Assembly (NCBI GenBank): GCA_016871805.1
Contig: VHCG01000002.1
Span: 62,001 to 126,000 of the forward strand
Source of the DNA: Verrucomicrobiota bacterium
Lineage (GTDB): Bacteria > Verrucomicrobiota > Verrucomicrobiia > Limisphaerales > UBA9464
Direction: 5' to 3'
DNA: 64,000 nt
In this document: positions 50,170 to 58,951 of the stretch, piece after piece
How positions within the stretch are numbered: the stretch's first letter is position 1
How the letters are laid out: each line of letters begins with the position of its first letter
The notes under the pieces: generated by a model
Databases searched by the model: none
What the model was told of the DNA's origin: nothing
What the model saw: only the letters and a program-made list of their open reading frames with translations
Program-made: the position numbers and the translations under genes

Positions 50170-52593
50170 ATGAGTGGGTTCCTCCTCTTGCTCCAATCGC
50201 TGGGTCTGGGTGTCCTGGCGACGCTGGGCGCCTTGGGCCTTGGCGGGATGGTCGCCCTGGCCGGCATGGTGTCGGGGGGCTTCGGACGTCGGGTCTGGCG
50301 GGGTCTGGCGGTTGCGGCCCTGGCGTTGCCGCCGTTCTGGCTGGCCAACAGCTGGCTGGAGCTCCTGTCGGCCGTGCGGTTGTCGATCCCGACGGATGCC
50401 TGGGATGGATGGGCGTTCCTCGCGACGGCTGGCATCCTGGCCTCGATGCTGTGGCCGGTGGTCGCCATGGTGGCCTGGGCGGCCTGGAGTCGGCTTCAGG
50501 CCGCACACCTGGAGTCGGATCCCGGGCTGCGGGGGCTGCGATTTCTGGGTGCGGTCCTGTTACCGATGGGCCGGACCGAGTGGGGGATTGCGACGGCGAT
50601 GGTCTTCGTGCTCGCGGTGGCCAACTTCACCGTGCCGGTGCTGTTCCAGGTCCGGGTGTTCACCGAGGCGTTCTGGATCCGGTTCAACACCCGCTTCGAT
50701 GTCGTCGGGGCCATGGCGGTCGGCTGGCCGTTGTGGGTGTTGCCGATCCTGTTTCTCCGGTTCTGGAAGCCTGGATCCTGGACCTGGCCCCGGATCGAAT
50801 CCGAGGCCCCGGCCTCCGCATGGGGACAGGCCCTAGGGGGCTGGGCCTGGGCGGCACGGTTCCTGGCGGTGGCGGGACTCGCGGTCACGATCGGGGTTCC
50901 GTTCGGGCTCTGGGTGGTGTCGAACCGGACCTGGGCCGAGCTTCCGGGGGCGGTGGCGGCCGGGGGCGGGACCATTGGGAACACCCTCCGGACCGCAATG
51001 GTTCCGGCGACTCTCGGGGTCGGACTGTCCCTCGCGTTCCGTGGCCTCGGCCTGCGTTCCTCCCGATGGCTTTGGGGTCCCTTCCTGGTGCCCGGGATCG
51101 TGCTCGCGATGGTGCTGGTGCGCGGACTCCACCAACCCGTCGTCCCGGACGCCTTGCGAGGCTGGGCCGCGGTCTGGTTCGCCCTCACCCTTCGGTATCT
51201 CGCGCCGGCCTGGTTTCTGGTGGAGGCGGCGTTGGCAGCTGCGGATCCGCGGTGGTCCGAAGCCGCGCGTTCGGTGGGGGCGGGACGCTGGCGAACCTTC
51301 CGGACAGTGGTCCTTCCGCAGGCCTACCCGCATCTCGGTGTCGCCTGGATGGCGGTGTACCTGCTGTGCCTCTGGGACGTCGAGACGGTCATCCTGCTCC
51401 AGCCCCCCGGAGGGGAGACCCTCGCGCTGCGGATCTTCAACCTGCTGCACTACGGTCACGCAGGGCAGGTGAACGCCCTGTGCGGGGTGATGCTGGGCCT
51501 TGCGGTGGCGCCGCTGCTGTTGGGATGGGGCATCCAGCGCCTCCTCCGGCAGGGATTCCTGGCTGGACGGCCTGCGGTCCTCGCGTCTGTGGTCCTCGCT
51601 CTCGCCGGGTGTGGCGATCCGGGACCCGCCTCGACGTCTGTACCCTCGGACTCCCGCCTGTTCTCCCGCATCGAGTCCATTGGCTCCCGGGGCGTGGCAC
51701 CCGGACAGTTCAACAAGCCGCGGTCCCTCGTCTGCGATCGGGACGACCGGCTCTTCGTCGCCGACTTCACCGGGCGGATCCAGCGGTTTGGTTCCGACGG
51801 ACGGTTTCAGCTCCAGTGGCAGATGCCGGAGACGGACCTGGGCAAGCCCAAGGGGATGGGACTGGATCGCGATGGGGACATCGTCGTGGTGGAGCCGCAC
51901 TACATGCGGGTGAACCACTTCACGCCCGACGGGTTGCTGGTCTCGCGATGGGGGACCCGGGGGCAGTCGGAGGGGGAGTTCATCCTGCCCCGGGCCGTGG
52001 TCCAGGATCCCACCGGTTCCTTTGTGCTGAGCGAATACACGGTGGTGGAGCGGATCCAACGGTTCCGTCCGGACGTGAAGGATCTGGGACGGTTCCCGTC
52101 GCCGATCGCGTCCCCGTTCCGTGCGCCACCAAGTCCGGACGTCCGACGTCTCGTCGATCGGGTCTGGGGCACGCCGGGATCGGGACCGGGCCAGCTCAAC
52201 CGTGCGGAGGGGTTGGCCGTGGACAGGGAGGGTCACCTCTGGGTCGCGGATTCCTGCAACCATCGGGTGGAGGTGTTCGATCGTGACGGACGGTGGATCC
52301 AGACCGTGGGTCGTGCGGGTCCTGGACCGGGGGAGTTCAGCTATCCCTACGATGTGAAGATCGATGCCGAGGGGCGGGTGTTCGTCTGCGAGTTCGGCAA
52401 TAGCCGGATCAGCATCTTCGATGCGGCGGGTCGGCTGGTGGAGGTAATCGGCCGGTCGGGCGGGGCCCTGGGCCAGTTCGCCAATCCGTGGTCGATCGCC
52501 CTGGATTCGATGGGAAACCTGTATGTCGCCGATTCCCAGAACCACCGGGTCCAGAAACTGGTCCGGCGTGAGACGAGGGCCTCCGATCGCTGA
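50170..52593 (+). CDS. ABC permease fused to an NHL-repeat beta-propeller
   Basis: 807 residues. Residues 1 to about 470 are an FbpB-like double permease: many helices, and the EAA-type loop AARSVGAGRWRTFRTVVLPQ in the second half. After LLLGWGIQRLLRQGFLAG the chain enters a hydrophobic stretch ending LALAGCG, which looks like a lipoprotein signal. It then has about six NHL-type blades (GVAPGQFNKPRSLVCDRDDR, GQLNRAEGLAVDREGHLWVA, GEFSYPYDVKIDAEGRVFVC, GQFANPWSIALDSMGNLYVA). The frame is continuous with no stop between the parts. The embedded lipobox suggests a relatively recent fusion of two genes, or one frame hiding two products. Confidence 0.83.
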   Translation: MSGFLLLLQSLGLGVLATLGALGLGGMVALAGMVSGGFGRRVWRGLAVAALALPPFWLANSWLELLSAVRLSIPTDAWDGWAFLATAGILASMLWPVVAMVAWAAWSRLQAAHLESDPGLRGLRFLGAVLLPMGRTEWGIATAMVFVLAVANFTVPVLFQVRVFTEAFWIRFNTRFDVVGAMAVGWPLWVLPILFLRFWKPGSWTWPRIESEAPASAWGQALGGWAWAARFLAVAGLAVTIGVPFGLWVVSNRTWAELPGAVAAGGGTIGNTLRTAMVPATLGVGLSLAFRGLGLRSSRWLWGPFLVPGIVLAMVLVRGLHQPVVPDALRGWAAVWFALTLRYLAPAWFLVEAALAAADPRWSEAARSVGAGRWRTFRTVVLPQAYPHLGVAWMAVYLLCLWDVETVILLQPPGGETLALRIFNLLHYGHAGQVNALCGVMLGLAVAPLLLGWGIQRLLRQGFLAGRPAVLASVVLALAGCGDPGPASTSVPSDSRLFSRIESIGSRGVAPGQFNKPRSLVCDRDDRLFVADFTGRIQRFGSDGRFQLQWQMPETDLGKPKGMGLDRDGDIVVVEPHYMRVNHFTPDGLLVSRWGTRGQSEGEFILPRAVVQDPTGSFVLSEYTVVERIQRFRPDVKDLGRFPSPIASPFRAPPSPDVRRLVDRVWGTPGSGPGQLNRAEGLAVDREGHLWVADSCNHRVEVFDRDGRWIQTVGRAGPGPGEFSYPYDVKIDAEGRVFVCEFGNSRISIFDAAGRLVEVIGRSGGALGQFANPWSIALDSMGNLYVADSQNHRVQKLVRRETRASDR

Positions 52594-52717
52594 AGCATCG
52601 GCGGCGGGGAGGAGCGCCCCGCGGGATCGGGAGAGTTTGGAGAAACGGGAGAAACGATCGAAACGGTTTCCATCCCCATCCGTCCCCTGTAGCCTTCGGC
52701 AGTCCCCCGGATTGCCC

Positions 52718-53803
52718 ATGAAACGTCGTGCCTTTCTCCAGTCGGCGGCCGTTGCCGCGTCCACCGTCGCCTTTCCCTCCCTCCTTTGCGCCGCCGACAA
52801 GTCCGGCACGAAGCGCGCCCTAGTGGGCACCGGCGAACACATCTACGAGTGCCACCATGGCTGGGGCGAACTGCCGTCCCACCTGAAATGGGGCGAGACC
52901 CATGGTGTCGCGGTCGACGCCCAGGGCTTCATCTACATCAAGAACAACACCGGTCCGTCCGGGTTGCGGCACCAGGACTGCATCGTGGTGTTCGATCCGA
53001 ACGGGAAGTTCGTCCGGAGCTTTGGCGACGAGTACAGCGCCTACAACATCCACACGGTCGGACACGGCATCGACATCCGGAAGGAGGGGGGCACCGAGTA
53101 TCTCTACCTCACCCATACCTGGGCCAACCTCGTGACCAAGACGACCCTCGACGGCGAGATCGTCTGGGCGCTGAGCACGCCGTGGGAGTCGGGGGTGTAC
53201 AAGGACCGCAAGGAGTTCATCCCGACGAATGTGGCGTTCCATCCGACCGATGGCTCGTTCTACATCGCCGATGGCTACGGCTCGGGCCACATCCTTCGTT
53301 TCGATGCCAACGGGAAGTACCTCTCGAACTTCGGGGGGCGGGGCGGGGCCGACCAGCATGGCAAGTTCTCCACGCCGCACGGGCTCTGGGTCGACACCCG
53401 TCCGGGACGCGATCCGATGCTGTGCATCTGCGACCGTGCCAATGCGCGTCTCGAATATTTCACGCTGGACGGCACGTACGTCAGCACGGTGTCGGGCCTC
53501 AGCTATCCGGCGCACCTCGACATCCGGGGCGACGTGATGGTGTGTCCCGACCTGCATGCGCGGGTGACGTTGTTCGACAAGGACAACCGGGTGATCTCGC
53601 ATCTGGGCTACGACCAGGCCTGGACCGATCGGGTGCTCAACAAGGGCGGGCAGGGGGGATTCGTGATGCGGACCCAGCCCAAGACCTGGGAGGATGGCCG
53701 GTTCATCCACCCGCACGACGCCTGTTTCGACCGCGATGGCAATCTGTTCGTGGTCGAGTGGGTCTCCGTGGGGCGTGTGTCGAAGCTCAGGAAGGTGTCC
53801 TGA
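52718..53803 (+). CDS. Tat-exported NHL-repeat/six-bladed propeller protein
   Basis: 361 residues. The signal MKRRAFLQSAAVAASTVAFP is twin-arginine-like. The body is a propeller with repeated strands such as GVAVDAQGFIYIKNNTG, NVAFHPTDGSFYIADGYGSG, HGLWVDTRPGRDPMLCICDR and HDACFDRDGNLFVVEWVSVG. It resembles the peptidyl-alpha-hydroxyglycine-lyase-like and NHL proteins common in Verrucomicrobia, of unknown function. It lies 125 bases after the permease-propeller fusion, so two propeller genes are adjacent, perhaps by duplication and divergence. The next gene starts 77 bases downstream. Confidence 0.85.
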   Translation: MKRRAFLQSAAVAASTVAFPSLLCAADKSGTKRALVGTGEHIYECHHGWGELPSHLKWGETHGVAVDAQGFIYIKNNTGPSGLRHQDCIVVFDPNGKFVRSFGDEYSAYNIHTVGHGIDIRKEGGTEYLYLTHTWANLVTKTTLDGEIVWALSTPWESGVYKDRKEFIPTNVAFHPTDGSFYIADGYGSGHILRFDANGKYLSNFGGRGGADQHGKFSTPHGLWVDTRPGRDPMLCICDRANARLEYFTLDGTYVSTVSGLSYPAHLDIRGDVMVCPDLHARVTLFDKDNRVISHLGYDQAWTDRVLNKGGQGGFVMRTQPKTWEDGRFIHPHDACFDRDGNLFVVEWVSVGRVSKLRKVS

Positions 53804-53880: not shown

Positions 53881-56800
53881 GTGGAACCCGCTTCGGCCGC
53901 TCCATTGGCCCAAGGGGAACGTTCGCAGTTCCTCGACCTGTACCGGACGATGCTCACCGCCCGGACGGTGGATCGCGTCGAGGTAGAACTCGTCAACCGG
54001 GGTGAGGGATTCTTCCATGTCGGTGGGGCCGGCCATGAGGCCGCAGCCGTCCTGGCACCGCTCCTGACTCCCGACGACTGGCTCCATCTCCATTATCGGG
54101 ACAAGGCCCTGATGATCGCCCGGGGCATCCCGCCGGAGCAGTTCTTCCACAGCCTCCTGTGCACCGCCCGATCCCACTCGGCCGGTCGCCAGATGAGCGC
54201 CCACCTGAGTGCGCCCGAACTCAAGGTTCTCAGCCTTGTGGGTCCCGTGGGCAACAACGCCCTCCAGGCTGTCGGGGTCGCCACCGAACTGCAGGCCCGT
54301 CAGGTCCCCGGGAAACCGCTCGTGCTCTGCGCCGTCGGAGACGGCACCAGCCAGCAGGGGGAGTTCCTCGAGGCCGTCGCCGAGGCCGTCCGCAACCGGC
54401 TCCCGGTCCTGTTCTGGATCGAGGACAACCACCTCGCCATCTCCACCCAGACCCGGGGCAGGACCTTCTACGATCGTCCCGATGGCCCGGCCTCCGAGTT
54501 CTACGGACTTCCCATCCATCGTCTCGACGGACGCGACCCGGTCGACTGCTTCCGTCGGCTCCAACCCCTGGTCCACGGCCTCCGCTCCGGATCCGGCCCC
54601 GCCATGGTGGTGCTCGAGGTGGATCGGCTGACCCACCACACGAACGCCGACGACGAGCGGGTCTACCGCGATACGGCTGAGATGGAACGGGTCCGCCGGG
54701 ACTCTGATCCCCTCCGTCGGCTGGCGGCCCAGCTGGTCGAGGCAGGTCTCATCGCCGAGGCCCTTTCGGTGCTTGAGACCGAGGTGGAAAGGGAGGTCCG
54801 GGCGGCGGCCGACCGGGCCCTGGCGGCACCGAACCCCGAGGCGAACCGGGACGCCCGGCCGCCGCTGCCGGCCGGTCTGGTCCGGGTACCGGAACACCGC
54901 GGCACCCAGGACGGTCCGCGATGGACCATGCTGGAGGCACTGCGCGAGACCCTCCGGGTCTGGCTGGCGAAGGATCCGCGCGTCAGTCTGCACGGACAGG
55001 ATCTGGAGGATCCGAAGGGCGATGTCTTCGGTCTCACAAGGGGACTCTCCACCGCGTTTCCCGGGCGCGTCGCCAACGCGCCCCTCTCGGAGAGCACGAT
55101 TGCCGGCGTGGGCGTCGGACGGGCGCTTGCGGGGGGACGACCGGTCTCCTGTCTGCAGTTCGCCGACTTCCTCCCGCTGGCCTTCAACCAGATCGCCAGC
55201 GAGATGGGATCGCTGTGGTGGCGGACCGATGGCGGCTGGACGGTTCCGATGGTCCTGATGGCGCCCTGCGGCGGGTATCGTCCGGGACTCGGTCCATTCC
55301 ACGCCCAGACCTTCGAGAGTGTCGTGGCCCATACCCCGGGTGTGGACGTGGTGGTCCCGAGCACCGCCGCCGATGCGGTCGGGCTGCTCAATGCCGCGCT
55401 GCGCGGGGGGCGTCCCACCGTGTTCCTCTATCCCAAGGTGTGTCTGAACGACCCATCGCTCGCCACGAGCCGCGATGTCGCCGACCACATCGTACTGCCG
55501 GGCAAGGCCCGCCAGGTGGCCCAGGGCGGGGATCTGACCCTCGTCACCTGGGGTGGGACCGTGCCGCTCTGCCAGCGGGTGGTGACGGCGCTGCAGGGCG
55601 CCGGCGTGGGCGTCGATTTCCTCGATCTCCGGTCGCTCAGCCCGTGGGATGCCGACGCGGTGTGTGCCAGCGTGGAGCGGACCGGCCGGCTGCTGGTCGT
55701 CCATGAGGACAACCTCACCTGCGGGTTCGGGGCCGAGATTGTCGCCACGGTCTCCGAGCGGGTGGACCGCCCCATCCGGGCGCGGCGGGTGACGCGTCCC
55801 GACACCTACGTCCCCTGCAACTACGTCAACCAGCTCGACGTTCTGCCCAGCTTCCAACGGATCCTCGACGAGGCCGGACGCCTCTGTGGCGTCACCGTCG
55901 CCTGGGCCCAGGAGGTTCCTGCCGATGCCGAACGCTTCGTGCTCGAGGCGGTCGGGTCGAGCCCGGCCGACCAGTCGGTGTCGGTCATCGAATGGAAGGC
56001 CGCCGAGGGAAGCACGATCCAGGCTGGCGACCTGATCGCCGATTGCGAGGCCGACAAGGCGACCTTCGAGCTGCGGGCGCCGGTGGGCGGGGTGATCCGG
56101 GATCGGATCGCCGTGGGCGAAAAAGTCCCGGTGGGCACCCTGTTGGCGGTCATCGCCACCAGCCCCACGACGGCGGTCCTGCCCCGGCGTGTGCCGGTCG
56201 AACCCCGTCCGATCCTCGAAAGAAAGCCCGCCGCCGCCTACGGCGCGTCCTCCCCGTCCTCGATGTCGACGCCGGCGGTGCTGTCCGAGCCGGCGGCCTT
56301 CTTCCGCGACGTCGTCGCCATCTCGTCCATCGCCTCGGCCCCGGCCGGACGCGTGGTCACCAACGAGGCGCTCGTCCGCAGGTTCCCCGGGCGTTCGGCG
56401 CAGGACATCGTCCAGCGCACGGGTATCGAGTCCCGTCGCCATCTCGCCCCCGGGGAATCCGCCCTCACCCTGGCGGCGACCGCGGCCCGGTCGGCCCTGC
56501 GGTCCAGCGGCATGACCTTGGCGGATCTCGATGCGATCTACGTGAGCACGAGCTCGCCGGTGTCGGTCAGCCCCAGCATGGCGTGTCTGCTCCACCATGA
56601 GCTCAGCCGCGATGGCGATGCCCGGGACATCCCGGCCAGCGACATCCTGGCGGCCTGCACCGGCTACTTGTACGCCCTGCAGGCGGCCTTCGACTTCTGC
56701 CGATCCGAGCCTGCGGCCAGCGTGCTGGTGGTCACGGCGGAGGCGATGAGCCAGTACACGAATCCGGAGGACTTCGACACGGCGATCGTGTTCGCCGACG

Positions 56801-57291
56801 CCGCGACGGCAACCCTGGTGCACGGACCCCTATCCCCGATGTACCCGAAGGCCTGGGCCTGGCTGCACCGTCCGGTCCTGAGTGCCCGGGGCGAGGACGG
56901 CACGATCCTCCACCACGGCCGTCCCGGGGATCCCAACGTCAATATGGACGGCCTCAAGGTCTTCCCGATGGCGGTCCGGCAGCTGATCGCGCTGCTCCGT
57001 CAGGCCTGCGAGAAGGGGAACCAGGCGGTGGAGGAGCTCGACCATATCATCCCGCACCAGGCCAACGGACGGATCCTCGATGCGGTCGACCAGCGGTTGA
57101 AGCTGCCCAAGGGACGTCTGATCAACCGGGTCCGATACAGCGGCAACACCAGCAGCAGCACCATCCCTCTGGTACTCGCCGAGCTCCTGGCCGAGAAGCC
57201 CGCACCCCAGGGACGCGCCGGACTCTGCGCGTTCGGCGGTGGATTCACCTTCGGCGCAGCACTGCTGGAGTTCGCCAAGCCAAGGCGCTGA
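53881..57291 (+). CDS. E1 alpha - E1 beta - lipoyl - ketoacyl-ACP synthase III fusion enzyme
   Basis: 1136 residues from GTG. About 20-330: 2-oxoacid dehydrogenase E1 alpha with thiamine-diphosphate motif GDGTSQQGEFLEAVAEAV to EDNHLAIS (from about 153). About 345-680: E1 beta (WTMLEALRETLRVWLAKDP, FHAQTFESVVAHTPG). About 699-765: a lipoyl domain with its Lys in CEADKATFE (about 726). About 805-1136: a FabH-type synthase with complete triad, Cys about 926 in AACTGYLYAL, His about 1059 in IPHQANGRI, Asn about 1089 in YSGNTSSS. There is no E2 acyltransferase or subunit-binding domain. The likely role is decarboxylating a (branched) 2-oxoacid and using the acyl group to start fatty-acid or polyketide synthesis. 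Longer in-frame starts overlap the NHL gene and are rejected. Confidence 0.9.
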   Translation: MEPASAAPLAQGERSQFLDLYRTMLTARTVDRVEVELVNRGEGFFHVGGAGHEAAAVLAPLLTPDDWLHLHYRDKALMIARGIPPEQFFHSLLCTARSHSAGRQMSAHLSAPELKVLSLVGPVGNNALQAVGVATELQARQVPGKPLVLCAVGDGTSQQGEFLEAVAEAVRNRLPVLFWIEDNHLAISTQTRGRTFYDRPDGPASEFYGLPIHRLDGRDPVDCFRRLQPLVHGLRSGSGPAMVVLEVDRLTHHTNADDERVYRDTAEMERVRRDSDPLRRLAAQLVEAGLIAEALSVLETEVEREVRAAADRALAAPNPEANRDARPPLPAGLVRVPEHRGTQDGPRWTMLEALRETLRVWLAKDPRVSLHGQDLEDPKGDVFGLTRGLSTAFPGRVANAPLSESTIAGVGVGRALAGGRPVSCLQFADFLPLAFNQIASEMGSLWWRTDGGWTVPMVLMAPCGGYRPGLGPFHAQTFESVVAHTPGVDVVVPSTAADAVGLLNAALRGGRPTVFLYPKVCLNDPSLATSRDVADHIVLPGKARQVAQGGDLTLVTWGGTVPLCQRVVTALQGAGVGVDFLDLRSLSPWDADAVCASVERTGRLLVVHEDNLTCGFGAEIVATVSERVDRPIRARRVTRPDTYVPCNYVNQLDVLPSFQRILDEAGRLCGVTVAWAQEVPADAERFVLEAVGSSPADQSVSVIEWKAAEGSTIQAGDLIADCEADKATFELRAPVGGVIRDRIAVGEKVPVGTLLAVIATSPTTAVLPRRVPVEPRPILERKPAAAYGASSPSSMSTPAVLSEPAAFFRDVVAISSIASAPAGRVVTNEALVRRFPGRSAQDIVQRTGIESRRHLAPGESALTLAATAARSALRSSGMTLADLDAIYVSTSSPVSVSPSMACLLHHELSRDGDARDIPASDILAACTGYLYALQAAFDFCRSEPAASVLVVTAEAMSQYTNPEDFDTAIVFADAATATLVHGPLSPMYPKAWAWLHRPVLSARGEDGTILHHGRPGDPNVNMDGLKVFPMAVRQLIALLRQACEKGNQAVEELDHIIPHQANGRILDAVDQRLKLPKGRLINRVRYSGNTSSSTIPLVLAELLAEKPAPQGRAGLCAFGGGFTFGAALLEFAKPRR

Positions 57292-57602: not shown

Positions 57603-58889
57603 TCAGGCCAGCTTCCAGCCCGGACGGTAGTGCGAGAGGATGTAGCGATCCGCCTCGGGTAGACCCTTGGCCTGCATCCTGAGCGCATCCCACTCGATCC
57701 GTTTGCCGGTGCGGAAGGCCACGTTGCCGAGGGCACCGATCTCGGTGAGCTGGGCCCCGTAGGTGAGCGGCGAGTTCGTCTTTCCGCGTCCCTTGCAGGC
57801 CTCGATCCATTCGGCGTGGTGGCCGATCGAGTCGGGGATGCTCGGCAGCGGGGCCTGGAATCCCTCGAACTGCTTCTCGGGAAGCAGAATGCGGCGTCCG
57901 TAGTCGGCCAGGAGCAGCCCCTTGCTGCCGACGAAGAGCGAACCGCCGCCCCATTGGGTGAGGTCAGGCGTGCCCGGGACCTGGGGGCGGACGGTGCCGC
58001 TGTACCAGTGAAGGGTGACCGGTCCGCGTTTGCCGTAGGCTGGGAACTGGTAGTGCACCTTCAGCCACGACGGCGCACAGAATTCGTCGGGCTTCGGGCC
58101 CTTCGCCTCGATCGACGTCGGCAGGGTGAGGTCGAGCGCCCAGACACCGAGGTCGATATGATGGCAGCAGAAATCCATCAGCGTGCCGCCGCCCCAGTGC
58201 CACCAGCGGCGCCAGTTGAAGGGCACCCACTCGGAGCTGTAGGGACGATAGGTCACCGGTCCGACCCACTGGTCGTAGTCGAGCCCCGCCGGGATCGGCT
58301 GGGGAGGAGGCAACGGCCGCGTGTCCCAGGGCGACCCCGTCCAGTGATGCACCTCGCTTACCGTCCCGATCGCCCCGCTGCGGATGAGCTCCACGACGCG
58401 GCGGTAGTTGGAGGAGGAGTGGATCTGGTTGCCGGTCTGGGTCGGCAGGCCGGTGGAGCGAGCCAGATCCGACAGGATCCGGGCCTCCTGGATGGTGTGG
58501 GTCACCGGCTTCTCGAGGTAGAGGGGGCGTCCGCTCTTGAGGACGTTCGTGGCGATCACCGCGTGGGTGTGGTCAGGCGTGGCCACCAGGACGGCGTCGA
58601 GATCCTTCTGGTCGAGCATCCGGCGCCAGTCGACGTAGGTGTGGGCCGACGGGAACCGCTTCGCGGCACCGGCAAGGTTGCGGCTGTCGCAGTCGCACAG
58701 CGCGACGATGTTCTGGTCCTTGATCCCGTCGATGTTCTCGGCGCCGCGTCCGGCCACGCCGACGACGCCGATGTTGAGGCGTTCGTTGGGGGAGATTCGA
58801 CGGCGGGTGGAGGCGGAGGCCTGGCCCACGGTCATCCACGAGGCGACACCAAGGGCGGAGGTCTGGAGGAACTGGCGACGGCTGGACAT
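57603..58889 (-). CDS. Tat-exported Gfo/Idh/MocA family oxidoreductase
   Basis: 428 residues. The Tat signal SSRRQFLQTSALGVASWMTV is followed by a Rossmann motif in LNIGVVGVAGRGAENIDGIK, and by EKP in LYLEKPVTHTIQEARIL. The C-terminal domain contains WWHWGGGTLMDFCCHHIDLG, typical of the large exported Verrucomicrobia/Planctomycete clade. Exported members fold with bound NAD(P) in the cytoplasm before Tat export; their substrates are mostly unknown sugars. I use the ATG directly before the signal. It lies 62 bases downstream of the uronate-isomerase-like gene. Confidence 0.9.
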   Translation of the reverse strand: MSSRRQFLQTSALGVASWMTVGQASASTRRRISPNERLNIGVVGVAGRGAENIDGIKDQNIVALCDCDSRNLAGAAKRFPSAHTYVDWRRMLDQKDLDAVLVATPDHTHAVIATNVLKSGRPLYLEKPVTHTIQEARILSDLARSTGLPTQTGNQIHSSSNYRRVVELIRSGAIGTVSEVHHWTGSPWDTRPLPPPQPIPAGLDYDQWVGPVTYRPYSSEWVPFNWRRWWHWGGGTLMDFCCHHIDLGVWALDLTLPTSIEAKGPKPDEFCAPSWLKVHYQFPAYGKRGPVTLHWYSGTVRPQVPGTPDLTQWGGGSLFVGSKGLLLADYGRRILLPEKQFEGFQAPLPSIPDSIGHHAEWIEACKGRGKTNSPLTYGAQLTEIGALGNVAFRTGKRIEWDALRMQAKGLPEADRYILSHYRPGWKLA

Positions 58890-58951
58890 GGGCCGAGCAT
58901 TGGGAATCCCCCGCAGCACCGGCAATCGGGAAATTCAGAAACGCCTCGGTT

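Follow-up and report, generated by a model that had tools for sequence, protein, structure and literature searches.

An acyl group bound to a lipoyl arm is known as an intermediate on its way to coenzyme A (CoA) or to an acyl carrier protein (ACP). Here we describe a gene, located in a 64,000-nucleotide stretch of a Verrucomicrobiota genome (assembly GCA_016871805.1, contig VHCG01000002.1, positions 62,001 to 126,000; hereafter the window), which encodes in one chain the alpha and beta parts of a 2-oxoacid dehydrogenase E1, a lipoyl domain, and a FabH-like 3-oxoacyl-ACP synthase III (KAS III). Its closest precedent is, in our assessment, the QncN/QncL/QncM type of system, in which an E1, a lipoyl domain, and an acyltransferase load an ACP (PMC6335953). 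The original prediction for this locus, made from the sequence alone, had instead pointed to a cooperation of separate E1 and KAS genes in Photorhabdus stilbene synthesis; the branched-chain dehydrogenase BkdABC of that organism is described as producing a CoA ester, isovaleryl-CoA (PMC3838401), and therefore offers no CoA-free precedent. In the open-access literature searched, we found no description of an E1-lipoyl-KAS III fusion.

According to our analysis, the fusion is likely to be a self-contained oxidative initiation enzyme, which would convert a 2-oxoacid into an acyl-lipoyl intermediate and, through the KAS cysteine and malonyl-ACP, into a 3-oxoacyl-ACP without free acyl-CoA. The E1 part, with thiamine diphosphate, would decarboxylate a 2-oxoacid, most likely a branched one and probably 2-oxoisovalerate, and reductively acylate the lipoyl arm at K726. 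Carried by flexible linkers, the arm would then reach KAS III, and Cys926 would take over the acyl group directly from dihydrolipoyl, with neither an E2 acyltransferase nor free acyl-CoA involved. Condensation with malonyl-ACP would yield a 3-oxoacyl-ACP such as 4-methyl-3-oxopentanoyl-ACP, from which iso even-chain fatty acids start; the enzyme would have a role in membrane lipids. A separate E3 (dihydrolipoyl dehydrogenase) would re-oxidize the arm, and LipA together with an LplA/LipB-type enzyme would install the lipoate.

We favor this reading because the catalytic residues are invariant among the relatives, the residues that clamp CoA are lost in 72 of 72, and KAS III stands where a sister family has its E2, as well as because the acyl pocket has a Ser/Thr gate and E1 alpha is closer to the 2-oxoacid dehydrogenase of T. 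thermophilus and to the branched-chain 2-oxoacid dehydrogenase (BCKDH) than to pyruvate dehydrogenase (PDH). It also draws on genomes that have no other E1_dh protein, some of which have no E2 or a single one directly after aceE, on the iso lipids of Pontiella, and on the presence of E3, LipA, and LplA/LipB-type genes.

Domain architecture of the one-chain protein

The frame is uninterrupted and its product is a single chain. GTG 53881 is the likely start codon, although the frame continues open in the 5' direction into the preceding gene, which ends at 53803. A Pfam scan of the window protein detected six domains, all above the curated cut-offs, in the N- to C-terminal order E1_dh (21-321), Transket_pyr (349-519), Transketolase_C (541-652), Biotin_lipoyl (700-758), ACP_syn_III (921-981), and ACP_syn_III_C (1044-1130), but neither an E2 catalytic domain (2-oxoacid_dh, PF00198) nor an E3-binding domain. 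The identical six-domain set is found in 40/40 members of alignment A1, 0/40 of which carry PF00198 or an E3/E1-binding domain, so that both the four-part chain in one frame and the lack of an E2 in it, as originally proposed, were confirmed. The features are as follows.

53881..57291, + strand: whole one-chain E1 alpha-E1 beta-lipoyl-KAS III gene, 1136 amino acids
53941..54843, + strand: E1 alpha domain, residues 21-321 (Pfam E1_dh, 134 bits)
54337..54429, + strand: thiamine-diphosphate motif G153-D-G ... N183
54925..55836, + strand: E1 beta domains (Pfam Transket_pyr and Transketolase_C), with E404 and H474
55933..56166, + strand: lipoyl domain, residues ~685-762, beta strands in the AlphaFold2 model
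56056..56058, + strand: predicted lipoyl attachment lysine K726 in EADKA
56173..56310, + strand: flexible linker from lipoyl to KAS, Ala/Pro/Arg-rich, median 41 residues (34-73)
56311..57282, + strand: KAS III (FabH-like) domain, residues 811-1134 (Pfam and Foldseek)
56656..56658, + strand: KAS nucleophile Cys926 (E. coli FabH Cys112)
57055..57057, + strand: KAS His1059 (FabH His244)
57145..57147, + strand: KAS Asn1089 (FabH Asn274)

Among the 72 distinct full-length relatives aligned (see below), G153, N183, E404, H474, K726, A727, C926, H1059, R1064, and N1089 are invariant (72/72). These include residues of the GDG motif, the EADKA lysine, and the Cys-His-Asn triad which had been pointed out beforehand.

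The AlphaFold2 model of the window protein has a mean pLDDT of 83.7 and a pTM of 0.72, with residues 785-807 of the linker below 50. In Foldseek comparisons, the E1 beta part resembles E1 beta of PDH and BCKDH, and the C-terminal part resembles E. coli FabH (TMt ~0.9). The closest solved E1 alpha structures are those of the T. thermophilus 2-oxoacid dehydrogenase (131 bits), human BCKDH alpha (89 bits), and PDH (82 bits); in the alignment with human BCKDH, its segment HHSTSDDSSAYR is matched with HHTNADDERVYR of the window protein. The KAS domain scores below the NCBIfam cut-offs for fabH, with 208 versus 292 bits for TIGR00747 and 244.7 versus 249 bits for PRK09352.

Loss of the CoA clamp in the KAS III domain

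In FabH of Yersinia and E. coli, the adenine of CoA is sandwiched by Trp32 and Arg151, with Thr28 in contact, while the pantetheine arm is held by Arg36, Asn209, and Asn246 (PMC4606726). As a control for the fusions, we considered the standalone FabHs from 20 genomes, 18 of which carry the fusion. Thr28, Trp32, and Arg151 each occur in all of the 20 standalone FabHs but in none of the 72 fusions, which mostly have Arg/Trp at the first position, Asp/Ala at the second, and Phe/Pro/Gln at the third; the three columns agree with the alignments to PDB structures. The positions concerned in the window protein, together with that of the acyl-pocket gate, are given here.

56392..56394, + strand: R838 where FabH has Thr28, CoA-adenine contact lost
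56404..56406, + strand: D842 where FabH has Trp32, CoA-adenine contact lost
56773..56775, + strand: F965 where FabH has Arg151, CoA-adenine contact lost
56569..56571, + strand: S897 at the acyl-pocket gate, where FabH has Phe87

The fusions nevertheless keep Arg36 (69/72) and, as the Asn and Arg of HQANxR, Asn246/247 (72/72) and the ACP-side Arg249 (72/72). The fusions have thus lost those donor-site features that are specific to CoA and retain what the chemistry and a phosphopantetheine acceptor require, which is the pattern expected for a non-CoA donor and a phosphopantetheine-ACP acceptor. Furthermore, the loop preceding residue 1024 comprises 20 residues in the fusion versus 33 in FabH. 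PDB entry 2aj9 is a W42A/R161A double mutant of M. tuberculosis FabH, whose W42 and R161 we take, from their spacing, to correspond to Trp32 and Arg151. The gate position is Ser or Thr in 72/72 fusions and Phe in 19/20 standalone FabHs, and in FabHs a small residue at position 87 is associated with acyl groups larger than acetyl (PMC3734052).

Relatives and host genomes of the fusion

When we scanned 388 genomes of the window's phylum, the full four-domain protein was found in 35 of them, the window's own included, and two more copies were split at contig ends. A second scan, of GTDB species genomes, returned 53 loci labelled Verrucomicrobia, Thermoleophilia/Miltoncostaeales and other Actinomycetota, Spirochaetales, and, for one contig, Acidobacteria. 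The 72 single-frame relatives that were aligned share 42 to 95% identity and belong to Verrucomicrobiota (Kiritimatiellota included), Actinomycetota, and Spirochaetota; one fusion-bearing genome is a single 4.1-Mb contig. Against the relative that is 95% identical (L031), the window gene has a ratio of nonsynonymous to synonymous substitution rates (dN/dS) of 0.095, and identities at codon positions 1, 2, and 3 are 0.96, 0.98, and 0.81, the differences concentrating at the third. Since there are 72 such full-length relatives, dN/dS is low, and changes fall on third positions, a chance frame is ruled out, and so is an assembly artefact, which the original prediction had named as a possible refutation.

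Three contigs of metagenome-assembled genomes titled Bifidobacterium breve or Akkermansia muciniphila (L058, L077, L076) carry the environmental fusion; L058 and L077 have Thermoleophilia-type neighbors, and all three titles look misassigned.

In the same phylum, we also identified one-chain E1 alpha-E1 beta-lipoyl-E2 proteins (L084, L085, L144-L151) of ~1020-1140 amino acids, whose E2 domain is divergent and ends in DH[KR]xxNG. A maximum-likelihood analysis of the E1 part, which was based on a short search and is given moderate weight, groups the KAS fusions in one clade (support in the Shimodaira-Hasegawa-like approximate likelihood ratio test [SH-aLRT] of 100) that is sister (97) to the E1-lipoyl-E2 clade (100), and separate E1 genes lie outside. 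Given this sister relation, KAS III occupies the place of the E2 acyltransferase, i.e., of the acyl acceptor. The two families thus appear to differ by an exchange of E2 and KAS III on a common E1-lipoyl scaffold. No genome was found with both types of chain; as ~2.6 would be expected by chance, we give this no weight.

The window's own genome (G000) is 91% complete, and family searches of it found no E2. Its matches to Transket_pyr/E1_dh are the fusion, a transketolase, and a DXS-like protein with a partial E1_dh match, the latter two being named from frame length and match pattern. Apart from the fusion, this genome showed 2-oxoacid:ferredoxin oxidoreductases and no E1_dh/E2-type dehydrogenase complex for pyruvate, 2-oxoglutarate, or branched-chain substrates. 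It also encodes an E3 (C19:57476-58861, 470 bits versus a cut-off of 409), LipA, LplA/LipB-type genes, GcvH, and a standalone FabH. The search for E2 and E3 elsewhere in the genome, suggested at the outset, therefore returned only the latter. A general absence of E2 from fusion genomes is ruled out, however, as most of them have 1-3 E2s and only G000 has none; the argument from E2 is therefore narrowed to genomes whose single E2 goes with aceE. G035, G384, G087, and G032 have no E1_dh protein other than the fusion, and the same holds for G000 except for the partial DXS-like match; in G035 and G384 the single E2 lies immediately after aceE.

These E2 genes bear on the explanation that the domains are merely tethered, i.e., that an E2 acting in trans passes the acyl-lipoyl group to free CoA and the KAS domain then takes up acyl-CoA, the normal FabH substrate. 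We deem it improbable, although E2 genes occur in most fusion genomes, since the adenine-binding Thr, Trp, and Arg are absent in 72/72, the window's own genome yielded no E2, G035 and G384 have none outside the aceE operon, and the fusion has no E3/E1-binding domain. Direct, CoA-independent transfer from lipoyl to KAS, as first proposed for this chain, instead gains support from the clamp that is lost in 72/72 fusions and kept in 20/20 standalone FabHs, from the E2-bearing sister, and from the genomes without another branched-chain E1 or E2.

In a separate observation, G081 (one contig of 3,882,676 bp) has a compact operon (L140:2526-8115) that combines E2 with a lipoyl-bearing E3 and an E1 alpha-E1 beta fusion of ~820 amino acids, and a separate aceE-like and E2 locus (L141).

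By established pathways, even-numbered iso fatty acids start from isobutyryl, derived from valine via 2-oxoisovalerate. Pontiella agarivorans NLcol2 (G035), in which the fusion is the sole E1_dh-family E1 and the sole E2 belongs to aceE, makes even-numbered iso acids, its lipids comprising C18:0, i-C12:0, i-C14:0, and i-C18:0; published major fatty acids, in varying mixes, are C18:0, i-C12:0, i-C14:0, i-C16:0, and i-C18:0 (PMC10880615).

Several points weigh against the proposed initiation enzyme. All fusion genomes tested also encode a standalone FabH, which rules out the fusion as the cell's sole FabH. E3 and LipA serve the glycine cleavage system too, since GcvH is present, and are therefore not diagnostic of another lipoyl client. 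Among the four proteins scanned none scored above the cut-off for a valine-type ferredoxin oxidoreductase, but the broad 2-oxoacid:acceptor (ferredoxin) oxidoreductases of G000 and G035 could be an alternative source of branched acyl-CoA such as isobutyryl-CoA. The substrate assignment draws only on the relationship of the fold, the gate of the acyl pocket, and one or two profiles of fatty acids. Nor does the fusion gene have a conserved fatty-acid operon partner next to it: in the neighbor comparison, no partner is conserved across phyla, and shared neighbors are confined to single lineages. Finally, loss of the adenine clamp could also be compatible with an acyl-ACP donor.

This last point, together with the phosphopantetheine contacts that remain, would also fit a KAS domain primed by acyl-ACP, with the E1-lipoyl half serving a separate reaction; we regard this as very improbable, since coupling is suggested both by the covalent arrangement E1-lipoyl-KAS, strictly kept in 72 homologues, and by the exchange of E2 for KAS in the sister, and the chain offers no second acceptor for the acyl-lipoyl arm. 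The ever-present FabH and the lack of conserved fatty-acid neighbors, for their part, would suit a lipoyl-to-KAS transfer whose product is a specialized lipid or polyketide starter, or in which the acyl group is handed to an ACP or another acceptor without condensation, all the more so as natural-product clusters do contain an ACP-loading E1-lipoyl-acyltransferase (PMC6335953). We consider such a role unlikely, given that neither the complete Cys-His-Asn triad nor Arg249 on the malonyl-ACP side varies, that the gene lies outside any recognizable biosynthetic cluster and is widespread in ordinary environmental genomes, and that a carrier strain has predominantly iso even-chain acids. Since the host also has an ordinary FabH, E3, LipA, and LplA/LipB-type genes, the initiation enzyme is best placed as a second, dedicated initiator beside that FabH.

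As to the immediate surroundings, the upstream neighbor (window 52523-53803) is a protein with an export signal and no Pfam match, and the downstream one (window 57603-58925, opposite strand) is a Gfo/Idh/MocA oxidoreductase; neither flanking gene points to a pathway partner.

Comparison with known systems

We cautiously lean toward seeing in the fusion a widespread one-chain enzyme with a new logic for starting fatty acids, in which a lipoyl arm serves a ketosynthase and bypasses CoA, which differs from its sister by the E2/KAS III exchange on a shared one-chain scaffold, and which explains the even-chain iso acids of Kiritimatiellota that have no branched-chain complex. If so, acyl-lipoyl would feed a carbon-carbon-bond-forming synthase directly, and the iso fatty acids of anaerobic Verrucomicrobiota/Kiritimatiellota without a branched-chain dehydrogenase complex would be accounted for. 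A swap of the terminal domain on the E1-lipoyl scaffold would have converted a catabolic dehydrogenase into a biosynthetic enzyme, and a portable one-gene module for CoA-free priming of engineered branched lipids would become available. The deposited carrier strain, Pontiella agarivorans DSM 113125, makes the idea directly testable.

In the glycolyl loading systems QncN/QncL/QncM and SclQ1-4, E1 and a lipoyl arm likewise feed an acyl group into an assembly line, but they are separate proteins with an E2-like acyltransferase, a ketose phosphate substrate, loading of an ACP, and no coupling to a ketosynthase (PMC6335953). The E2-like acyltransferase and dedicated ACP that characterize the QncL/SclQ type have no counterpart here, as the chain contains no acyltransferase and no neighbor family is shared across phyla. 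Photorhabdus BkdABC resembles the fusion in being a branched-chain 2-oxoacid dehydrogenase, which feeds branched fatty acids and stilbene, and differs in its separate genes and its isovaleryl-CoA product. The E1-lipoyl-E2 proteins of the same phylum have the same scaffold, with a C-terminal E2 instead of KAS III. FabH shares with the fusion the fold, the Cys-His-Asn triad, the ACP-side Arg249, and the pantetheine contacts, whereas it keeps Thr28, Trp32, and Arg151, has Phe87 at the gate and a longer loop, and is not fused to E1 and a lipoyl domain. BCKDH, finally, has the same E1 alpha and E1 beta folds, thiamine-diphosphate motif, catalytic Glu and His, lipoyl DKA lysine, and an E3 acting in trans, but requires E2 and CoA, while the fusion is one chain without an E2 or an E1/E3-binding domain; the acyl acceptor is CoA in BCKDH, and in the fusion it would be the cysteine of KAS III.

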